DNA of 64,000 nucleotides from Gluconacetobacter asukensis (GTDB lineage: Bacteria; Pseudomonadota; Alphaproteobacteria; Acetobacterales; Acetobacteraceae): NCBI RefSeq assembly GCF_014174375.1, contig NZ_JABEQE010000007.1, positions 62,001 to 126,000 of the forward strand, read 5' to 3'. Every line of letters starts with the position of its first letter. The first letter of the stretch is position 1. The notes beneath the pieces were generated by a model. The model was not told the DNA's origin and made no database searches. It was given only the letters and a program-made list of their open reading frames with translations. The position numbers were made by a program, and so were the translations under genes. Shown here piece by piece: positions 12,989 through 51,270 of the stretch.

Positions 12989-14005
12989 ATGCTTAATCTT
13001 TCCCGCTTCGCGCGCTATCCGCTCACCTTCGGGCCGACGCCCATCGAATTCCTGCCGCGCCTGAGCGAGAGCCTGGGCGGCGACGTGCAGATCTACGCCA
13101 AGCGCGAGGACTGCAATTCCGGCCTGGCCATGGGCGGCAACAAGCTGCGCAAGCTGGAATATATCGTTCCCGACGCCCTGGCGTCCGGCGCGGACACGCT
13201 GGTTTCGATCGGCGGTGTGCAGTCCAACCATACGCGCCTGGTTGCCGCCGTCGCGGCCAAGATCGGCATGAAATGCCATGTGATCCAGGAAAGCTGGGTG
13301 CCCCATGACGACGCGGTGTACGATCGCGTGGGCAATATCCTGATGACCCGCCTGATGGGCGCGGACTCCCGGCTGGTCGATGAGGGCTTCGATGTCGGGA
13401 TCCGCGATAGCTGGCTGCAGGCGCTGGAGGAAGTGAAGGCGAAGGGTGGCAAGCCCTATGCCATTCCCGCCGGCGCGTCGGTGCACAAGTTCGGCGGGCT
13501 GGGCTATGTCGGTTTCGCCGAGGAGGTTCGGGCCCAGGAAGCGGAACTGGGCTTCAAGTTCGATTTCATCATCGTCTGCACGGTGACCGGTTCGACTCAT
13601 GCCGGCATGCTGGTCGGCTTCGCCGACGACGGACGGGCGCGGCAGGTGATCGGAATCGACGCGTCCTTCACCCCGAAACAGGTGAAGGCGCAGGTGCTCG
13701 ATATCGCGCAGAAGACCTCGGCCTTGGTCGACGGGCCGGAAATCGCCGGCGATGACGTGGTGCTGGTCGAGGATTATGCCTATCCCGCCTACGGCGTGCC
13801 ATCGAAGGAAACGGTGGAGGCGATGCGCCTGGCGGCGCGGACCGAGGCGATGATTACCGACCCGGTCTACGAGGGGAAATCGATGCAGGGCCTGATCGAC
13901 CTTGTCCGCAAGGGCTTCTTCCCGAAGGGGTCGAAAATCCTCTATGCGCACCTGGGCGGCGTGCCCGCGATCAATGGCTACAGCTACACGTTCCGCAACG
14001 GCTGA
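12989..14005 (+). CDS. acdS: 1-Aminocyclopropane-1-carboxylate (ACC) deaminase
   Basis: A 338-residue PLP enzyme that opens and deaminates ACC, the ethylene precursor, to 2-oxobutyrate and ammonia. The length is that of characterised AcdS. Key residues are all seen: PLP Lys52 (G-G-N-K), Ser79 (V-Q-S-N), Tyr294-Glu295 in V-Y-E-G-K-S and Leu322 in A-H-L-G-G. The Glu295/Leu322 pair separates true AcdS from D-cysteine desulfhydrases. RBS AAGGGG. Divergent Lrp regulator as in known acd loci. In plant-associated bacteria it lowers plant ethylene and supplies nitrogen; here it sits in a wider amino-acid catabolic cluster. Confidence 0.95.
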
Positions 14006-14031
14006 ACGGTTCGGGCGGTTCGCGGACGCCA

Positions 14032-14055
14032 CGCGCGGCGGATGGCCGCCGCGCG
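14032..14055. terminator. Hairpin between convergent acdS and M81 genes
   Basis: Perfect 10-base-pair stem CGCGCGGCGG / CCGCCGCGCG with an ATGG loop, without a T tract. Position between two convergent 3' ends suggests bidirectional termination or transcript protection. Confidence 0.5.
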
Positions 14056-14081
14056 ATCGTCCGCCTCGGGGGCGGAGGGCG

Positions 14082-15563
14082 TTACGCCTCCACCGCATGC
14101 GGGTCCTCGACAATCGGCCAGATCGGGCGGCTGAGTTTGCGATAGCGGGTGCGGCGGGCGTCCGACGGATAATGCGTTCCGGCATCGACATAGAGGATCT
14201 CGTCCGCCACGGGCTGGAATGCCGCGTAGAAATGGTTGGTCGATTTCACCACCAGGTATTTCTTTTCGGCGATGTCGATGCCCAGGCCGGAAAAGATGTC
14301 CGGGTCGAATGTCTGGGCGCGGTTCGTGTTCAGGATGACGTCGACCCGCGTGCCGGCGATCCGGACCACGGAAGAGGCCCCTAGGGGCACGCGGCTGGCG
14401 CCGAAACTCTCCCAGGCCTCGGTGACCGCCTTCAGGACCGTGACGGTGGCATCGATCGGATCGCCCGCGCCGGGGCCGCTCTTGCCGCCGAAGCGCAGCG
14501 TGAGGGTCGCCCCTTCGCCTGCGGCCAGGCAGAACGTGACAGCCATCGGATCCCAGATCGTGGCCACGCCGACATCGTTCAGGCCCGCATCCAGCATGGC
14601 CCGCAGGATCAGGGTGCCGTCGCCGGCCACGCCGCCGCCGGGATTGTCCCATGTGTCGGCCAGGACGACGGGCCGGGTTGCGCCTGCCGCGACGCGGGCG
14701 GCCGCCAGATGCAGGGCCTCCTCCACCCCGTGCTGGGTCATGCGGGTGGCGCCGCGCAGGGCAAACAGGTCCATCCCCTTTTCGCGGGCAAGGCGCGCGC
14801 CGCGTTCCGGGTCGTTGTCGGTGATGACCACCATGCGCGCGCCGAGTTCGGGCACGTCGCCGGCCAGGAAGCCGTGGATCAGCGAGACGCTGAGCACCGT
14901 ATCCTGCCCTTCCAGTGCGCGCAGGCTGTCGATGAAGCCGCGCATCGGCTGCTGGCTGGTCGGCAGGACGTCGATCATCCGGCAATCGAAGACCGAGATC
15001 ACCGGACGGATTTCGCCACGCACCGCGCGCAGGGTCAGATCGACGACCTGTTCGGCGCGCGCGACGAAGTCGGTATGGGGAAATTCCAGGAAGGCATTGA
15101 GGATATCGAGGTTTTCGACACGCTTCGGCGTCAGGTGGCTATGCGGGTCGAACGTCGCGCCGATCACGGCGTCCGGCCCCGCCAGCGCACGGACGCGCGC
15201 CAGAAGGTCGCCCTCGCAATCGTCATATCCCTGCGCGACCATGGCGCCATGCAGCCCCAGCACGACGGCATTGACGGGCAGGGCGGCGCGAAGCTGGTCC
15301 AGGATTTCGTCGCGCAATGCCTCGTAAGTCTGGCGCTGGACCAGGCCGCCGGGGTCGGCCCAGGTGGCGGTGCCCTCGACCAGTTCGAACCCCTCGCGGC
15401 TTGCCCGGCTGCGCAGGGACGGAAACACGGCGGAGCACAGTGTCGGCGTCGCGGGGTGCCGGCCCGGAGGGGCGTAGAACGCGGCGAGGAAGTTCGCGCG
15501 ATCGGTGGGAACGGGTGAGAATGTATTGGTTTCCGTGGCGAGGGAGGCGACGAATACCTTCAT
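14082..15563 (-). CDS. M81-family (MlrC-like) metallohydrolase
   Basis: A 493-residue M81/MlrC protein. MlrC was named for hydrolysing linearised microcystin, but most homologues sit in other amino-acid or peptide pathways. Seen are the N-terminal T-E-T-N-T-F-S-P signature, the F-D-P-H-S-H-L-T metal-binding segment near 170, and a conserved central D-N-P-G-G-G motif. It is the last gene of a leftward run (MFS, MFS, amidase, AbgB-like, permease, D-serine dehydratase-like, RidA, this gene). A second copy lies at 31424-32887. The substrate is probably an amide or peptide bond in an unusual amino-acid conjugate, by context. Confidence 0.88.
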   Translation of the reverse strand: MKVFVASLATETNTFSPVPTDRANFLAAFYAPPGRHPATPTLCSAVFPSLRSRASREGFELVEGTATWADPGGLVQRQTYEALRDEILDQLRAALPVNAVVLGLHGAMVAQGYDDCEGDLLARVRALAGPDAVIGATFDPHSHLTPKRVENLDILNAFLEFPHTDFVARAEQVVDLTLRAVRGEIRPVISVFDCRMIDVLPTSQQPMRGFIDSLRALEGQDTVLSVSLIHGFLAGDVPELGARMVVITDNDPERGARLAREKGMDLFALRGATRMTQHGVEEALHLAAARVAAGATRPVVLADTWDNPGGGVAGDGTLILRAMLDAGLNDVGVATIWDPMAVTFCLAAGEGATLTLRFGGKSGPGAGDPIDATVTVLKAVTEAWESFGASRVPLGASSVVRIAGTRVDVILNTNRAQTFDPDIFSGLGIDIAEKKYLVVKSTNHFYAAFQPVADEILYVDAGTHYPSDARRTRYRKLSRPIWPIVEDPHAVEA

Positions 15564-43383: not shown

Positions 43384-43454
43384 AGGCGCCGAAGCCGGCC
43401 CGACCGGGGGGATGGCGGGAACAGGCGCCCCTTTTGCTGCGTTGGGAGCTCATC

Positions 43455-44408
43455 ATGGAACAGCGTAACTCCTGCATCTCGAATCCGGATCAGGCAATGC
43501 GGCAGGTGGGAATCACGCTGTTGCGAGCGGGTTATCGGTTTGTGTGTCCAACGCCGGAAACCCAGCGCCGGGTGAATGCGCGCCCGGGCAATGAATGGGC
43601 TGGTAATCTGGTCGATATCTTCGGCTGGAGCCGCCCGTTCCGGCGGCAGACGAGGCCCGTGCCGTTGGTCGAACTGGCCATGGTGGCGGGCATGCTGGTT
43701 GCAGATGAGGGGGAATGGCGCAGTCGGTTCCGCTTCTCGACGCTGGGGCGTAATGGGTTCTTTCATTCATCCTTTCCGACCGAGGCAGAGGATTCCGTGT
43801 TCTTCGGTCCGGACACTTGTCGGTTTGGCGCCTTACTGGCGGCCTATCTTCGTGATGCGCCGCCTCCGGCGCGGGCGGTCGATATCGGCTGCGGCGCGGG
43901 GCTGGGTGCCATCCTGATCGCACAGCATGACCCGGCGGCCGAAATCATGATGGTGGACATCAATGCGGCCGCGCTGCGGCTGGCGCGCGTCAATGCGGCC
44001 CTGGCTGGTGTCGACTTCATTCTGGCGCGGCAGAGCGACCTTCTGTTGGACGTTTCGGACGAATTTGACCTGATCGTCTCCAATCCGCCCTATTTGCCAG
44101 ATCGTCGACGCCGGCTTTACCGAAATGGTGGTGGCAGGCTGGGGGAGGGATTGTCCCTGGCGATTGTCGGGACTGCCATGGAGCGTCTGGCATCCGGAGG
44201 GACGTTACTTCTTTACACAGGGACCGCGATTATTAGTGGAGAGAATCCGTTCCTGCGGGAGGCGGTCCTTCTGCTGGATGGTCCGGATTTCGTTTGGGAA
44301 AGCGTTGAACGCGATCTGGATGTTCTCGGGGAGGAACTGGAGGAAGGACCTCTGTCGGTCGCGGAGCGTATCGCGGTGATTTGCCTGAGGGTGACACGAC
44401 GAACGTAG
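43455..44408 (+). CDS. Class I SAM-dependent methyltransferase (HemK/PrmC-like N-P-P-Y type)
   Basis: A 317-residue methyltransferase. SAM motif A-V-D-I-G-C-G-A-G-L-G and the active-site S-N-P-P-Y-L motif place it in the N6-adenine/N5-glutamine group. The N-terminal ~140 residues have no recognised domain. ATG at 43455 follows GGGAG; a start 7 codons upstream is rejected. Divergent from the ATP-grasp gene and just ahead of the heme-oxygenase-like pseudogene. It may methylate a small molecule or peptide rather than a release factor, given the context, but this is inference. Confidence 0.78.
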   Translation: MEQRNSCISNPDQAMRQVGITLLRAGYRFVCPTPETQRRVNARPGNEWAGNLVDIFGWSRPFRRQTRPVPLVELAMVAGMLVADEGEWRSRFRFSTLGRNGFFHSSFPTEAEDSVFFGPDTCRFGALLAAYLRDAPPPARAVDIGCGAGLGAILIAQHDPAAEIMMVDINAAALRLARVNAALAGVDFILARQSDLLLDVSDEFDLIVSNPPYLPDRRRRLYRNGGGRLGEGLSLAIVGTAMERLASGGTLLLYTGTAIISGENPFLREAVLLLDGPDFVWESVERDLDVLGEELEEGPLSVAERIAVICLRVTRRT

Positions 44409-44416
44409 AACGAGGG

Positions 44417-45311
44417 ATGGTGCCGATGAAGGGCAGCCTGTCGGAGGACACCGCCGAGCGGACGCAGCGGGATCTCCATCTGGGTCTTGCGACGCTGAAT
44501 CGCGCGCGTCTGACATCCTCCTGCCCGAGGATGACGACATTGTCGGGTCGGACCCGGGTTCCCAGCAGGTGGATGAGGCGCGCTTTCTGCAAGCGATGCG
44601 TGCACGGGTGGCGCCTGCCGCCGCTTTGGCGCCCATGGACCCGGCGGCATTCGTCACGTGGTTCGAGGAACTGGAGCAGACTGGTCCGGGTCAGGGGGAC
44701 CCGCTTTTTTCCCTGGCTGGCACAGCACGCGCCGCGTGAGGCCATGTGCTGGTTTCTGGAGCAGGAAGCGGCCGGGGAGGCGGGCTTTGAGGATCTGACG
44801 GCCCTGGTGCAGGTGCGTATGCCCATACGACCGAAGCTGGAGCCGGCGCGGAATTACTGGGACGAAATGGGTCACGGCCGAGAGCCGGGCATGCATGGGC
44901 CGATGCTGGCGCATCTGGTCCATGCCCTGGGGCTGGAGCCCCGGCCGGACAGGACGGTGTGGCAGTCACTGGCTCTCGCCAACACCTTGGCGGGGCTGGC
45001 TTTTCACCGGCATCTGGCGGTTTCATGCGATCGGTGCGCTGGGTGTGATCGAACTGACGGCGTCGGGCAGGGCGGCAATGGTTGCCGCCGGGCTGAAACG
45101 TTTGGGCGTAGGGCTGGATGACCGGCACTATTTCGATCTGCATGCTGTCCTGGATATCCGCCATTCCGCGATGTGGAACGCGGAAATCATCGGTCCGCTC
45201 GTTGCGGAAGACCCCCGGCGCGCGGTGACGATCGCTGAGGGGGCCCTGATGCGCCTGGAATGTGGAGCGGCATGTTTTCGCCGTTATCGGGAGCATTTCG
45301 GGTGGGGCTGA
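44417..45311 (+). pseudogene. Heme-oxygenase-like iron-containing redox enzyme, frameshifted
   Basis: Coding signal passes through four segments: M-V-P-M-K-G-S-L to ~44505; D-I-L-L-P-E-D-D-D to the T6 run at 44705-44710; F-P-W-L-A-Q-H-A-P-R-E to ~45020; and F-H-A-I-G-A-L-G-V-I-E-L to the stop. Joined, they give an iron-containing redox enzyme of the heme-oxygenase-like diiron oxidase fold, with E-x-x-x-Y-W-D-E-M-G-H and a late H-x-x-x-D-I-R-H. All three shifts fall at short repeats (GC tract, T6, GGTTT), so sequencing error is possible; otherwise the gene is dead. Such oxidases often modify amino acids or peptides, fitting the adjacent ATP-grasp and methyltransferase genes. Confidence 0.7.
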
Positions 45312-45475: not shown

Positions 45476-46666
45476 ATGACGACGATGATCCCCAAGGAGG
45501 GCCGGGAAGATTTGCTGGAGCGCGGTTATTCCCGCCGCCAGTTCGGCCGGATCGCAGCCCTGCTTGGCATGCCGGTGGCTGCGGCGGCTGCACTGCCGCA
45601 CTTGGTGGGACAGGCTCGGGCTGTTGCTCCTGCGATCCCCGAGATGCATCGGCCCGATAAATCCGGCATGGTGCGTATTGCCTCCAACGAATGCTGGACC
45701 GGCCCGTTCCCGTCCGCCGCCGAAGCCGGTGCTGCGGTGATCAAGGAGGGAAACCGTTATGAGCCCTCGCATCTTCGGGACAATTTGATCGATACGGCGG
45801 CCAAGGTCGAGGGCCTGCCCGCCACGCATATCTTGCCGTGGCCGGGGTCGAGTGATCCGCTTTCGCGTGTTGTCGTCACATTCTGCTCGCCCACGCGGGG
45901 ATTGGTCACGGCCGATCCGACTTTTGAGGCGGCCTGGCGAACGGGAGCGTGGTTGAACGTCAAGGTGACCAAGGTGCCGCTGAGCGCGCGGAACAATTAT
46001 GCCACCGACGTGCGGGCCATGCTCAAGGCAGATCCTAATGCCGGCCTGTATTATATCTGCTCGCCCAATAACCCGACCGGTACGTTGACGCCGATCGAGG
46101 ATATTGCGTGGCTGGTGGACAACAAGCCGGCGGGTGCCGTGGTTGTTGTGGACGAAGCCTATCTGCACTTTGCGGGGACGAAGAGCGCGGCATATCTTGT
46201 GGCCCAGAACAAGGATGTTGTCGTTCTGCGCACATTCTCGAAGCTGTTCGGGATGGCGGGTTTGCGCCTGGGATTCAGTTTCGCGCGGCCGGACCTGCAT
46301 GCGCGCATGATGCGTTATGACGGGCAGAGCCAGAGCGGCACCCTGTCGATCGTCGCCCTGGCAATCGGTGCGTCGAGCCTGGCTCAGGCTGAGAATATCG
46401 TGGCACGCCGCAAGGAGATGATTGCCGCGCGCGAAGAGACGTTCGATTATCTGCGCAAGCGCAAGATCGCGTTCATCCCCAGCAACGCCAACATGTTCAT
46501 GGTAAACTGGAACCAGCCTGCTCGCCATGTGAAGGAACAGTACGCAGCGCAGGGGATCGATATCGGTCGCAGCTGGCCGATCTGGCCCAATATGTCGCGT
46601 ATTACGGTCGGATCGGCTGACGAGATGAAGAAATTCTGCGCGGCGACCGACAAGGTCTTCGCCTGA
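45476..46666 (+). CDS. Tat-exported PLP aminotransferase (HisC-like, fold type I)
   Basis: A 396-residue class I/II aminotransferase with a twin-arginine signal: Ser19-Arg20-Arg21-Gln-Phe followed by an Ala-rich hydrophobic segment to about residue 50. Catalytic Lys256 in T-F-S-K-L-F-G-M-A-G-L-R, Asp226 in V-V-D-E-A-Y and P-N-N-P-T-G at 197-202 show an intact PLP site. The ATG at 45476 has GGAG at 7 bases; a start 14 codons upstream would bury the signal. Export of a PLP transaminase to the periplasm is unusual. The neighbouring Tat flavoprotein and cytochrome c suggest periplasmic amino-acid metabolism. Substrate unknown. Confidence 0.88.
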   Translation: MTTMIPKEGREDLLERGYSRRQFGRIAALLGMPVAAAAALPHLVGQARAVAPAIPEMHRPDKSGMVRIASNECWTGPFPSAAEAGAAVIKEGNRYEPSHLRDNLIDTAAKVEGLPATHILPWPGSSDPLSRVVVTFCSPTRGLVTADPTFEAAWRTGAWLNVKVTKVPLSARNNYATDVRAMLKADPNAGLYYICSPNNPTGTLTPIEDIAWLVDNKPAGAVVVVDEAYLHFAGTKSAAYLVAQNKDVVVLRTFSKLFGMAGLRLGFSFARPDLHARMMRYDGQSQSGTLSIVALAIGASSLAQAENIVARRKEMIAAREETFDYLRKRKIAFIPSNANMFMVNWNQPARHVKEQYAAQGIDIGRSWPIWPNMSRITVGSADEMKKFCAATDKVFA

Positions 46667-46724
46667 TTCTCATCGGTTGAGGCGTGGGCGAGGTGAGCCA
46701 TTGGGCCGCCTCGCCAGAATATGG

Positions 46725-46768
46725 GGGCTGTATCCGTTCCTTTGGGTTACGGATACAGCCCCGTTTTC
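46725..46768 (+). terminator. Strong terminator after the aminotransferase gene
   Basis: A perfect 14-base-pair stem (46725-46738 with 46750-46763), 11-base loop, then G-TTTT. It separates the convergent aminotransferase and cytochrome c genes and may stop both, though the T tract serves the rightward one. Confidence 0.85.
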
Positions 46769-46777
46769 ATATGTGGT

Positions 46778-47248
46778 CTATTTTGAAGGCGATGTGTCGG
46801 GTTGTATGGTCAGTGCGGGAAATTTGAGGGATGCCTGACGTTTTTCCGTGATCGGCAATGCGGTCTTGGCTGGAGACGCGCCGTTTTCACGCATGAGAAA
46901 CGCGACCAGGGTGGTGGCATCTTCCGGCGACAGCGTGCCGGGGGCCATCAGGGGCATGGCGCGTTGGATATAGCCTGTCAGGCGAGAAAGGGGTGTTCCG
47001 GCCCAGCTTGCCACCAGCCGTCCTTTGAGGGACGGCGTCTGGAAATTTCCACTCAGATCGGCGCCATGGCACATGGCGCAGGCTCTCTGGTAGAGATCCG
47101 CTCCGCTTTGCGCCTGCTCGGCGGTGAATGATGGAATCGACGAGGCTGCGGGCCTGGCGGCGTGAAGCGGGGAGGGGGAGGCGACGCATAGGGCCATTGC
47201 CCCCACTATGCCTGACGGCATGAGGCGGAAAAATTGCTTGCGAGGCAT
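46778..47248 (-). CDS. Periplasmic c-type cytochrome
   Basis: A 156-residue mono-heme class I cytochrome c. Sec signal peptide ending near residue 30 (L-H-A-A), heme motif Cys57-Ala-Met-Cys60-His61, and axial Met in M-P-L-M-A-P-G (98 or 101). It lies 3 bases after the D-amino-acid-oxidase-like gene in the same operon and probably takes electrons from that flavoprotein to the respiratory chain, as cytochromes do for alcohol and aldehyde dehydrogenases in acetic acid bacteria. Confidence 0.92.
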   Translation of the reverse strand: MPRKQFFRLMPSGIVGAMALCVASPSPLHAARPAASSIPSFTAEQAQSGADLYQRACAMCHGADLSGNFQTPSLKGRLVASWAGTPLSRLTGYIQRAMPLMAPGTLSPEDATTLVAFLMRENGASPAKTALPITEKRQASLKFPALTIQPDTSPSK

Positions 47249-47251
47249 GGG

Positions 47252-48529
47252 TCAGCCTTCCGAAAGGGGCGAACGGGCGAACAGGTCTGCCAGAACCTTG
47301 ATGGCCCGTTCCGATTCGGAGCGGTCTGGATGTTCGAAGGAATTTCCGACGCTGCCCATTTCGCCTTCGTTATTCAGGTCGTATGCCTGAACCATCAGCC
47401 CATCCGTCTTTGAGACTGCTGAGGCGCCCTGATAATGCAGGCCGTAAGGAAGGTCCGGACGGGGGGGCAGCCAGGCGGTCTGTCCCCTTACGGGGATCAG
47501 GCTCTTGTCGTTCCACCAGTCGCGTGCCGCATAGCCGGGGCAATTGATGATGATCTTCTCCGGCAGGGATGTCAGTTCGCTGGGGTCGTGGAATTCCCGG
47601 ATCACGACATGGCCACCCGCCTGGAAGAATTCCGACATCAGCAGATGCCCATAGGAGGCGAAATTGTAGAGCATGAGGGTGTTGCGCTTGGCATAGGGGG
47701 CGGCAAAGGGATTTTCCGACGGGTGCAGTTCTTCAGCCGCCGGCACGATATCCTTGATGCGATCCGAGTAGCGCGCGAACTCCGTGCCATGCTGGGGCAT
47801 GCCAGTGGATGCATAATCGCCCGTGCGGCCATCCGGACTTTCCTCGTGGGGTGTATTGAACGGCCGGTCGGACAGCACAAAATGTTCGATGAATTCGACA
47901 GGGTTGCCGGGAAGGCCGAGATAGTCGCGATAGGTGGCCCACGATATCCGCGCCATCTTTTCCCACAGATCGGCGAAGCCCGGCCCTGCCGGCGCCGTCA
48001 GGGAGACGCGGGAATCCGGCGTCCAGCTGCCATTGGCGCGAACCGAGCGGGTCCTGGGAAGGAGGTCCTTGGTATAGATCGTGACGTCGAACCCGGCGCG
48101 TTGCGCCGTCAGGGCGGTGGTGAGGCCTATGATGCCGCAGCCGATCACCGCGACCTTGCGTTGCAGGGTGGTAGAGACCTTCTCGACCACCAGACTCGCC
48201 GATCCCCAGGAAAGGGACCACCCGCTGCCACCATGTCCGTAATTATGGAAAACGAGCTTGCTTCCCACATGTTCGACGTCAAACCGAGGCCCCATCGGAC
48301 GGAAAGGGCGCAGGCACACCTTGATGTCGGTGATCTGGTCGGCCCGCAGGTCGAATGGCTGAAGCCTGATACGCGGCTTCTGCGGCGTGAGGGCCTGAGT
48401 AGGAGAGACAGATGGAGTCTGGGCATGGAGGAGGCGGCTGCCTGCGAGGGCCCCGACGAGACTACAGGCGGAGGCGCCTGCGACAAGATGCCTCCGCCCG
48501 ATATTTCTGTTTCGATTGGTCATATGCAC
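47252..48529 (-). CDS. Tat-exported D-amino acid oxidase-like flavoprotein with permuted domain order
   Basis: A 425-residue DAO-superfamily protein. The N-terminus has a Tat-like signal (G-R-R-H-L-V then an Ala/Leu segment, cleavage near L-H-A-Q). Residues 74-78 (R-P-F-R-P) and 95-101 (H-N-Y-G-H-G-G), then W-G-S-A, match the C-terminal FAD- and substrate-contacting end of canonical DAOs. The Rossmann G-C-G-I-I-G follows at 130-135. The C-terminus ends after the R-G-Q segment without a second G-H-G-G. So the last ~80 residues of the standard fold have moved to the front. Probably oxidises D-amino acids in the periplasm with cytochrome c as acceptor. Start at 48529; Met3 is also possible. Confidence 0.8.
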   Translation of the reverse strand: MHMTNRNRNIGRRHLVAGASACSLVGALAGSRLLHAQTPSVSPTQALTPQKPRIRLQPFDLRADQITDIKVCLRPFRPMGPRFDVEHVGSKLVFHNYGHGGSGWSLSWGSASLVVEKVSTTLQRKVAVIGCGIIGLTTALTAQRAGFDVTIYTKDLLPRTRSVRANGSWTPDSRVSLTAPAGPGFADLWEKMARISWATYRDYLGLPGNPVEFIEHFVLSDRPFNTPHEESPDGRTGDYASTGMPQHGTEFARYSDRIKDIVPAAEELHPSENPFAAPYAKRNTLMLYNFASYGHLLMSEFFQAGGHVVIREFHDPSELTSLPEKIIINCPGYAARDWWNDKSLIPVRGQTAWLPPRPDLPYGLHYQGASAVSKTDGLMVQAYDLNNEGEMGSVGNSFEHPDRSESERAIKVLADLFARSPLSEG

Positions 48530-48600: not shown

Positions 48601-51270
48601 TCAGAATGTGGCATTCACGCGCCCGTAATAATATCCACCTGTGATGGGGACCTGTGACGAGCTGGCGTCATACACGGCGGTGCCGCCGCTATTGAGGATG
48701 TCTGGCAGCCGGCGCGGGCGCACATTGAAGACGTTATTCGCGCCAACCGCGAAGTGCCAGTGGCGGTCGAAGCGATAGCCGATTTCGAGATCCGTCAGCC
48801 AGCGCGGCGTGTTCTTGAACTGGCCGAAGCAGGAATTGGAGTAGCGTAGGGCTCCGCCGCTTGCGCAGGTGAGCGTGCCGTTCGTCCAGTCCTGATAGGT
48901 CATCATATCCGTCGTTTCGCCGTAGCGGGTCTGGCGCACGTTGATGTCCCATTTCCCGATCGTATAATACGCGTTCAGGATGATCTTGCTGCGCGGATAG
49001 GCGGTGGTGAGATAGCCGATGGTCTGGGCATTGAGCAGGGACGTACCATTCGCGGACGTGGCGGCATGATGCAGGCGCGTGCGGTTCAGGTCCAGCGCCA
49101 TGGAGAGCATCAGGTTGCCGTAACGGTGCAGGTGGAACGTGTAATCGGCCTTGATATCGAGGCCCTGGGTGCGTGTGCTGCCGATATTGGCGAAATAATA
49201 GGCCGAGACGTTCTGCGGATCGATATCGTTGACCGGGAGGGCGTAGCCCATCGCCTGGATCGCGTTGATCGCGGTCAGCCCCTTGGTCACGCCGCCCTGG
49301 CCGATACGGTTGCGGAGGTTGATCTGATAGACGTCCGCTTCGACATGGAAGCCATCAACCGGTTCGACGACCAGGCCGCCGCTGGCATTGACCGAATATT
49401 CCGGTTTCAGCGGCTGGGCGCCGAGAAGCGCGGCCGCGGCGGAGCTGACGGGGAGCAGGCCCGCCGCGCCTGTCGGGCTGACGCTCATGGTGCTGAAATG
49501 CTGTTCCGCCATCGTGGGGGCGCGGAAGCCCGTGCTGATGGTGCCGCGCACGGCGATCCGTTTCGTGATGTCGTAGCGGGTAGAGACCTTGCCGTTCTGG
49601 GTATTGCCGACATCGGTGTAATGCTCGAAACGTCCGGCGAAATCGAGATCCCAGTTCTTCAGGAGACGGAAATCGCCGTCGATATAGGCGGCCCAGATAT
49701 CACGGCTCCAGTTGCCGGCACTTTGCGGTGCGATGCCGACATAGCCCTGCGTGCCGCCGACTTCGTAGGAGGCGGGTTCGCCGGCCACGATTTCGTAGGT
49801 TTCCAGGCGATGTTCGCCGCCAAAGGCCAGGGTCATCGGCACGGTGTGGAAGATGTCGATATGCCGCCGGAAGTCCAGATTGTTGGTCCACTGGGCGTTG
49901 CGGTAGCTCTGGGTGTGTACCGTGGTTGGCGAATAGCCGCAGCCGGTGGTTGAGATGTTCGCGACGTTACCGTTGTTGCATCGGCTGCTCAGCAGGCCCG
50001 GATTGGCTGTGTGCTTGTTGCCGATATTGTCCTCATCCGCGCCATACTGGGTGCTGAGGTCCCAGTCGAACCCGAGGAAATCGTGGCCCTTGATGCCGAG
50101 CATGGCCGCATAGTCATTTTCCTCGATCGTTTCCAGAGGCGAGAAGCCGGCGGGGTAGAGCGTCGGCGCGATGGTCGGAATGCGGTAGTTCTGGATCGCT
50201 TCCGCATGACGGTGGCCGTAGGTGATCTGCCCGTAGAAATCGACTTTCTCGCCGATCGGCTTTCCGAAATCGATGCCCAGATTCTCCCGCGTTTCCTCCG
50301 GCGTGCTCATGATCTTGTTCGAGTCGAGGGGAAGTTTGAGCGGGTTGGCGACGATGCCATTATAATAGCCGCTGGTGGTGGCCCCTTGCGGCCAGTAGCC
50401 GAGAAGACGGTGGTCCTTGGTACCTTTCGGAACGAAATGGTCGGTGTGGTAGACCTGTCCGCTCAGATGCATGTAGCCGTCATTGCCGAGCTTGAACCCG
50501 CCGTCGGCGTTGACCTGATATTGCCAGCCGTCGCCGTTATAGGCGTTCGCGCCGGTCTGTGCCGAAACGTTCAGGCCGTGGCTGGTCTTCTTGGTGATGA
50601 TGTTGACCACGCCGGCAATGGCGTCCGAGCCGTACATGGCCGCCGCGCCATCTTCCAGTACCTCGATATGGTCGATCATGTTGGCGGGGATCATGTTCAG
50701 GTCGACGCCGGTTGCGCCGAAGCTCGGACCGGAGTTCTGGATGATGTTGGCCGTCACGTGGCGGCGTTTGCCATCCACCAGGACGAGAACCTGGTTGGGG
50801 TTGAGGCCACGCATGCGGATCGAGGAGGTAAGGGCTGCGGTGTCGCTGCCTTTGGCCTGGATGTTGATGGAGGCATAGGTGCGCGTCAGCGCGTCTGCCA
50901 GGTTCAATTGTCCTGAACGGGTCAGGGTGGCCGCGGTCACGACCGAGACCGGCGAGGTACTCTGGCGGGCGTGGCGGTTGCTGTCGTGGGTGCCGGTCAC
51001 GATCACGGCTTCGCCCGCATCGGGCGGTGCCTGATAGGGAGCGACGGGGGGCGCTACAGTGGGAATGGGAGCAGGGGGCACCCCGGCGGAAGCGGCGGGC
51101 GTGCTGGTCACTTTCCGGCTCTTCGTGGCAGGGCGATGGCCGGTTGTGGAGGCTGCGGACGTCGTGGCGGTCTGAGCGATCGCGCTGGCGACGTCGCACT
51201 GGATGGCAAGAATGGTAGCTGCGATCAGGCTTCGCCTTAGGGTCATAGAATTACTGTGCTCCCGCGCCAT
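48601..51270 (-). CDS. TonB-dependent outer-membrane receptor 2
   Basis: An 889-residue TonB receptor. A signal peptide (cleaved near A-I-A-Q) and a Thr/Pro/Ala-rich spacer precede a plug with S-I-R-M-R-G-L-N-P-N-Q-V-L-V-L-V-D-G-K-R-R-H and the D-A-I-A-G-V-V-N-I-I-T-K motif. The barrel ends A-T-F with the terminal Phe of outer-membrane proteins. An internal Met at 51246 is an alternative start; neither has a strong Shine-Dalgarno. It lies upstream of the DAO-like gene in the same direction and could import its substrate. The peptide or siderophore-like ligand is unknown. Confidence 0.93.
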   Translation of the reverse strand: MAREHSNSMTLRRSLIAATILAIQCDVASAIAQTATTSAASTTGHRPATKSRKVTSTPAASAGVPPAPIPTVAPPVAPYQAPPDAGEAVIVTGTHDSNRHARQSTSPVSVVTAATLTRSGQLNLADALTRTYASINIQAKGSDTAALTSSIRMRGLNPNQVLVLVDGKRRHVTANIIQNSGPSFGATGVDLNMIPANMIDHIEVLEDGAAAMYGSDAIAGVVNIITKKTSHGLNVSAQTGANAYNGDGWQYQVNADGGFKLGNDGYMHLSGQVYHTDHFVPKGTKDHRLLGYWPQGATTSGYYNGIVANPLKLPLDSNKIMSTPEETRENLGIDFGKPIGEKVDFYGQITYGHRHAEAIQNYRIPTIAPTLYPAGFSPLETIEENDYAAMLGIKGHDFLGFDWDLSTQYGADEDNIGNKHTANPGLLSSRCNNGNVANISTTGCGYSPTTVHTQSYRNAQWTNNLDFRRHIDIFHTVPMTLAFGGEHRLETYEIVAGEPASYEVGGTQGYVGIAPQSAGNWSRDIWAAYIDGDFRLLKNWDLDFAGRFEHYTDVGNTQNGKVSTRYDITKRIAVRGTISTGFRAPTMAEQHFSTMSVSPTGAAGLLPVSSAAAALLGAQPLKPEYSVNASGGLVVEPVDGFHVEADVYQINLRNRIGQGGVTKGLTAINAIQAMGYALPVNDIDPQNVSAYYFANIGSTRTQGLDIKADYTFHLHRYGNLMLSMALDLNRTRLHHAATSANGTSLLNAQTIGYLTTAYPRSKIILNAYYTIGKWDINVRQTRYGETTDMMTYQDWTNGTLTCASGGALRYSNSCFGQFKNTPRWLTDLEIGYRFDRHWHFAVGANNVFNVRPRRLPDILNSGGTAVYDASSSQVPITGGYYYGRVNATF

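Follow-up and report, generated by a model that had tools for sequence, protein, structure and literature searches.

The gene at 45476..46666 (plus strand) of the window, by which we mean the whole 64,000-nucleotide stretch of Gluconacetobacter asukensis DNA that was analysed, very probably codes for a PRK09105-subfamily transaminase that works in the periplasm, and it lies beside a separate unit predicted to oxidise amino acids. A first-pass annotation had proposed that a PLP transaminase might here be folded with its cofactor before export by the Tat pathway; the predicted signal, the catalytic site and the family assignment concur with this proposal, and a Tat-exported, cofactor-loaded enzyme is the best reading of the sequence. 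The open reading frame is as that annotation had given it, running from an ATG at 45476 to a stop at 46666 and encoding 396 aa; orthologues sharing this initial Met support the start.

A scan of genome contigs for relatives of the transaminase gave 125 matches, and the 80 best of these were taken further; the alignment used below has 80 rows and consists of the window together with 79 of those best 80 loci (L040, whose match starts only at residue 65, being omitted). The twin-arginine signal that had been reported is readily recognized: YSRRQFG occupies residues 18-24, a hydrophobic run comes next, and A-R-A stands at 47-49, giving a predicted signal peptide of residues 1-49 (45476..45622, plus strand), with cleavage expected after residue 49. 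The twin-arginine codons lie at 45533..45538 (plus strand), and in the alignment drawn from the best 80 of 125 matches R20 is found in 80/80 rows and R21 in 79/80, the second Arg of the pair being replaced by W at one locus (L013). The AxA site is also retained (A47 in 73/80 rows, A49 in 77/80), positions 36-46 just ahead of it are highly variable, and DLLxRGYS, immediately before the twin arginines, is unusually conserved as well. A Tat-like pattern (SRRx-hydrophobic, a hydrophobic stretch and AxA) arose in 1089 of 200,000 shuffles of the 50 N-terminal residues, i.e. about 0.5%, so that the case for the signal rests more on its conservation across genera than on the pattern. The genome encodes TatC, and the sequence features of a Tat substrate, namely twin Arg, hydrophobic stretch and AxA, retained among orthologues, are all present in the transaminase.

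The same annotation had described an intact HisC-like PLP site, and the alignment bears this out: N199, D226, Y229, S255, K256, R264, R365 and R375 are each present in 80/80 rows, and we take their catalytic roles to be those known from class I/II aminotransferases, K256 (codon 46241..46243, plus strand) presumably being the Schiff-base lysine for PLP. With this lysine, and 125.7 bits for Pfam Aminotran_1_2 (cut-off 19.7), the enzyme belongs to the fold-type I, class I/II aminotransferases. The NCBIfam profile PRK09105 (NF006580) gives 480 bits against a cut-off of 444 and is aligned over positions 2-371 of 375, signal region included. Scores for the HisC profile (TIGR01141; 196.4 bits, cut-off 276.55) and for the PtaA equivalog (NF051461, whose members turn the glutamate of pyoverdine into 2-oxoglutarate; 305 bits, cut-off 500) stay below threshold, as does that for Pfam Aminotran_5 (19.9, cut-off 21.5), the class V family to which PvdN belongs. 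A separate HisC is encoded in the same genome, with 297 bits on the HisC profile (above its cut-off) and no comparable signal, and by these profile scores the predicted transaminase is not the histidine-pathway enzyme HisC. That the protein is a cytoplasmic aminotransferase of HisC type, with an Arg-Arg near its N-terminus that arose by chance, is highly improbable: its HisC-superfamily ancestry would fit such a reading, but Arg-Arg, hydrophobic stretch and AxA are retained across genera where the flanking residues vary, and the genuine HisC of this genome does without them. An AlphaFold2 model of the transaminase (pLDDT 85.8) has a disordered linker, residues 33-54, between signal and enzyme, and its closest solved chain is 3ly1 (Z 38.0, rmsd 2.5, 332 aligned), whose own numbering runs about 40 ahead of the chain index, which may reflect a removed leader. 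A second Tat-like paralogue is found elsewhere in the same genome (L173; 42% identity), with 438 bits on PRK09105, just below the cut-off, and 352.7 bits on the PtaA equivalog profile.

By analogy with PtaA and PvdN, the periplasmic transaminase would fold around PLP in the cytoplasm, pass the Tat pore in its folded state, and have its signal cut after A-R-A. It might then act, in the periplasm, on the amino group of a peptide, of a siderophore-like compound or of a free amino acid, the partner being a 2-oxo acid.

Upstream, on the same strand, lie a methyltransferase gene (43434..44408; Pfam MTS) and a gene for a haem-oxygenase-like iron redox enzyme (44417..45308), which is spread over two frames. 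The latter is intact in G. takamatsuzukensis (L010), where it stands beside the methyltransferase and an ATP-grasp-like gene, and this gene order, common to the window and G. takamatsuzukensis, would suit a small natural-product pathway composed of ATP-grasp-like ligase, methyltransferase, haem-oxygenase-like oxidase and transaminase, in which the last would be a periplasmic tailoring enzyme, as PtaA is for pyoverdine. We regard this as distinctly unlikely, for in the window the reading frame of the oxidase gene is broken, G. tumulicola (L009), with a transaminase 99% identical to that of the window, yielded neither methyltransferase nor oxidase when examined, and no such gene set stands beside the other orthologues whose gene maps were inspected.

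Within the order, the transaminase was detected in 55 of 299 genomes (E up to 1e-70); across the phylum, 14 of 398 carry it when the family model is applied above its cut-off. Its surroundings vary by lineage: a hopanoid cluster is found in 28 loci of acetic acid bacteria (Gluconobacter, Asaia and relatives), and housekeeping genes, as judged by eye, are found near it in sphingomonads. In these 28 loci it runs against the strand of the hopanoid genes, and at one of them (L018) it is flanked by hpnD and hpnC. A functional link with hopanoids was considered and set aside, the placement being read as shared ancestry because the window locus and the sphingomonad loci are without the hopanoid cluster. 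Tandem transaminase pairs occur in 17 of the best 80 of 125 loci; 14 of these belong to records that bear the name Sphingobium. A small protein is encoded upstream of the transaminase in 13 loci, and is of the cupin family in L018. In genome G127, an aminotransferase remnant (L090, 3362-3571), corresponding to residues 327-396 with 92% identity, lies beside a copy of the flavin-dependent oxidase described below, and the transaminase gene has therefore probably been lost there.

Downstream of the transaminase, the two neighbours that had been pointed out, a cytochrome c and a Tat-signal FAD enzyme, are indeed adjacent; both are encoded on the opposite strand, and consequently share no operon with the transaminase. 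The first is a class I cytochrome c with CxxCH (46778..47248, minus strand; Pfam Cytochrome_CBB3, 50.2 bits) that is predicted to be exported, the second a D-amino-acid-oxidase-like flavoenzyme (47252..48529, minus strand), and 71 bp upstream of it lies a TonB-dependent receptor (48601..51270, minus strand; Pfam Plug and barrel). With gaps of 71 bases between receptor and flavoenzyme and of 3 bases between flavoenzyme and cytochrome c, the three genes form a separate operon-like unit that converges on the transaminase. A strong hairpin between the convergent genes (46724..46762; fold z-score -4.63 over 46700-46790) is probably a terminator; it appears as a weaker sub-match in a terminator scan in which terminator-like counts do not exceed those of shuffles, and a scan for promoters found none. 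This unit would carry out the periplasmic oxidation of amino acids, probably of the D-series, with electrons passing to the cytochrome c.

The flavoenzyme of this unit is almost certainly, on sequence grounds, a natural circular permutant of D-amino-acid oxidase. Pfam DAO matches it with 75 bits (cut-off 27.9) in two stretches, of which the better aligns residues 125-417 to profile positions 1-297, and the N-terminal piece taken alone aligns to positions 302-352; only when the sequence is reordered does the profile run through in one pass, as a single stretch covering 1-352 of 353 with 83.4 bits. D-amino-acid and D-aspartate oxidases in the PDB match in the same swapped order: in 6rkf, for example, query residues 124-171 and 284-352 align to chain residues 13-62 and 146-213, and residues 70-119 to 283-335. 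The usual order of such oxidases, with the FAD motif first and the HNYGHGG block last, is not that of the flavoenzyme, and in 47 of 48 related loci an xxYGHG block stands 30-31 residues ahead of the FAD motif, the 48th (L091) ending at a stop ahead of that motif. A single-sequence structure model reached a pLDDT of 32.5 and was not used. Within the phylum, members of the permuted family occur in 18 of 398 genomes (E up to 1e-20, the window genome counted), among them further Alphaproteobacteria and a single genome from a different class, and no description of a permuted D-amino-acid oxidase was found in the open-licence PMC literature.

A cytochrome c of the type found in the window follows the permuted oxidase in all 30 Acetobacteraceae loci tested; among 18 further permuted-oxidase loci, an adjacent cytochrome c is found only at the window genome's own second copy. 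The TonB receptor stands next to the oxidase in 9 of the 30 loci, whose flanks are short. The second copy (L172, C2:268000-287000) adjoins a class A beta-lactamase-like protein, a Beta-lactamase-family (S12-type) hydrolase and a protein of the penicillin-amidase family, a neighbourhood that is possibly a context for D-amino-acid-containing substrates. The copy of G. tumulicola (L009, 9783-11054, minus strand) has one in-frame stop.

Do the transaminase and exported oxidases belong together? The first-pass annotation had hinted that the neighbours matter, and this holds in part: an exported amino-acid oxidase lies near the transaminase more often than chance would give, but the neighbours in the window are a conserved unit of their own, with the permuted oxidase not found in 79 of 80 relatives' loci (the best 80 of 125, a few just 3-4 kb long). 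A functional link read from the window alone was thus rejected as a general rule, since only G. tumulicola, nearly the same species, has oxidase and cytochrome among the 80 loci, and since the genes converge. Of 60 transaminase loci, 5 have an exported amino-acid oxidase no more than 15 kb away, against 0.51 expected, in three independent arrangements (P about 0.01 at a Poisson mean of 0.45 and, calculated by hand for 0.51, about 0.015). The first is that of the window and G. tumulicola, with the permuted oxidase near the transaminase. In the second (G105 and G261) the permuted oxidase lies about 12 kb away, and a TonB receptor, an ABC transporter and a carbamoylase-family hydrolase are encoded in between. 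The third, in K. melomenusus (L016), is an array on one strand of LAAO, cytochrome c, transaminase, TonB receptor, LAAO and cytochrome c, the receptor beside the aminotransferase being 68% identical to that of the window; it is the only one of the best 80 of 125 loci with an LAAO near the transaminase. More distant versions exist: the genomes G517 and G372 have a Tat HisC-like enzyme (27% identical), a TonB receptor and a permuted oxidase within about 6 kb, and the loci L168 and L169 hold LAAO, permuted DAAO, TonB receptor and Tat HisC-like enzyme. In L168, the last of these and the permuted oxidase adjoin a gene for a DUF2817 protein (13962-15089, minus strand) with weak similarity to a deacylase/carboxypeptidase fold.

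At the genome level, the permuted oxidase is present in 23 of 55 transaminase-bearing genomes vs 24 of 244 others (Fisher 1.1e-7, kinship ignored), and LAAO in 12 of 55 vs 44 of 244 (P 0.32, kinship ignored), i.e. with no association. For these counts and for those within 15 kb, permuted-oxidase matches weaker than 1e-60 were dropped (47 of 133 genomes kept), as were 18 weaker or fragmentary LAAO rows (56 of 70 genomes kept).

These observations bear on a periplasmic deamination module. For the locus itself, this would mean a Tat transaminase beside a Tat permuted oxidase that feeds cytochrome c, the oxidase supplying or removing the 2-oxo and amino partners, which we consider unlikely. In a broader form, the transaminase would place the amino group on a 2-oxo acid and a Tat oxidase, either LAAO or permuted DAAO, would, with its cytochrome c, regenerate the oxo acid from the amino acid so formed, so that respiration would drive transamination. 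The excess of nearby oxidases in three arrangements, the two LAAO-cytochrome pairs around the transaminase in K. melomenusus, the distant versions in L168 and L169 and the co-occurrence with the permuted oxidase all point towards such a trans-deamination, but no oxidase stands near the majority of transaminase loci, LAAO shows no association by genome, the units of the window are convergent rather than co-transcribed, an L-amino acid could not be recycled by a D-specific oxidase, and related genomes are not independent; we regard this broader form as unlikely too. Such a module, if it existed, would explain how turnover of a PLP transaminase is achieved in the periplasm. The PRK09105 lineage, conserved in acetic acid bacteria and sphingomonads, provides test cases outside pseudomonads for periplasmic PLP enzymes, few of which are characterized. 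The permuted oxidase is of interest for its own sake: its D-amino-acid-oxidase family is widespread and permuted by nature, bears an export signal, is partnered by a cytochrome c in acetic acid bacteria, and could be an oxygen-independent D-amino-acid dehydrogenase.

Compared with known systems, the flavoenzyme shares with D-amino-acid oxidase the FAD motif, the RPxRP and HNYGHGG blocks and the Pfam DAO match, and differs from it in having the C-terminal block at the N-terminus, a Tat signal and a cytochrome c partner. In the lao-cccA-ridA cluster of G. diazotrophicus PAL5, as at the oxidase locus of the window, the gene for a Tat amino-acid oxidase lies next to one for a cytochrome c, and lao mutants are reported to lose auxin synthesis; its oxidase, however, is an Amino_oxidase-type LAAO of 533 aa from another flavoenzyme family (PMC5053998). 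The transaminase has the fold and catalytic residues of HisC, but scores below the HisC cut-off, is predicted to be exported and coexists with another HisC. It lies above the PRK09105 (NF006580) cut-off over nearly the whole profile, nothing tested separates the two, and no paper naming PRK09105 was found in open-licence PMC. PtaA of Pseudomonas fluorescens, which acts in pyoverdine tailoring, is likewise a HisC-like PLP transaminase; according to the relevant section of a review, both PtaA and PvdN are exported by Tat with PLP already bound, PtaA being carried folded and owing its name to its presence beyond pyoverdine producers, and cofactor recycling outside the cytoplasm is left open there (PMC6206403). 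The window enzyme differs from PtaA in falling well short of the equivalog threshold and in having no pyoverdine genes seen beside it, and from PvdN, with which it shares predicted Tat export of a PLP enzyme, in its score below the class V cut-off. PA2531 is described as another aminotransferase with a Tat signal (PMC6085387). Tat-exported PLP enzymes are thus a rare but established class, including PvdN, PtaA and PA2531, to which the window transaminase adds a member; it is therefore not new in kind.
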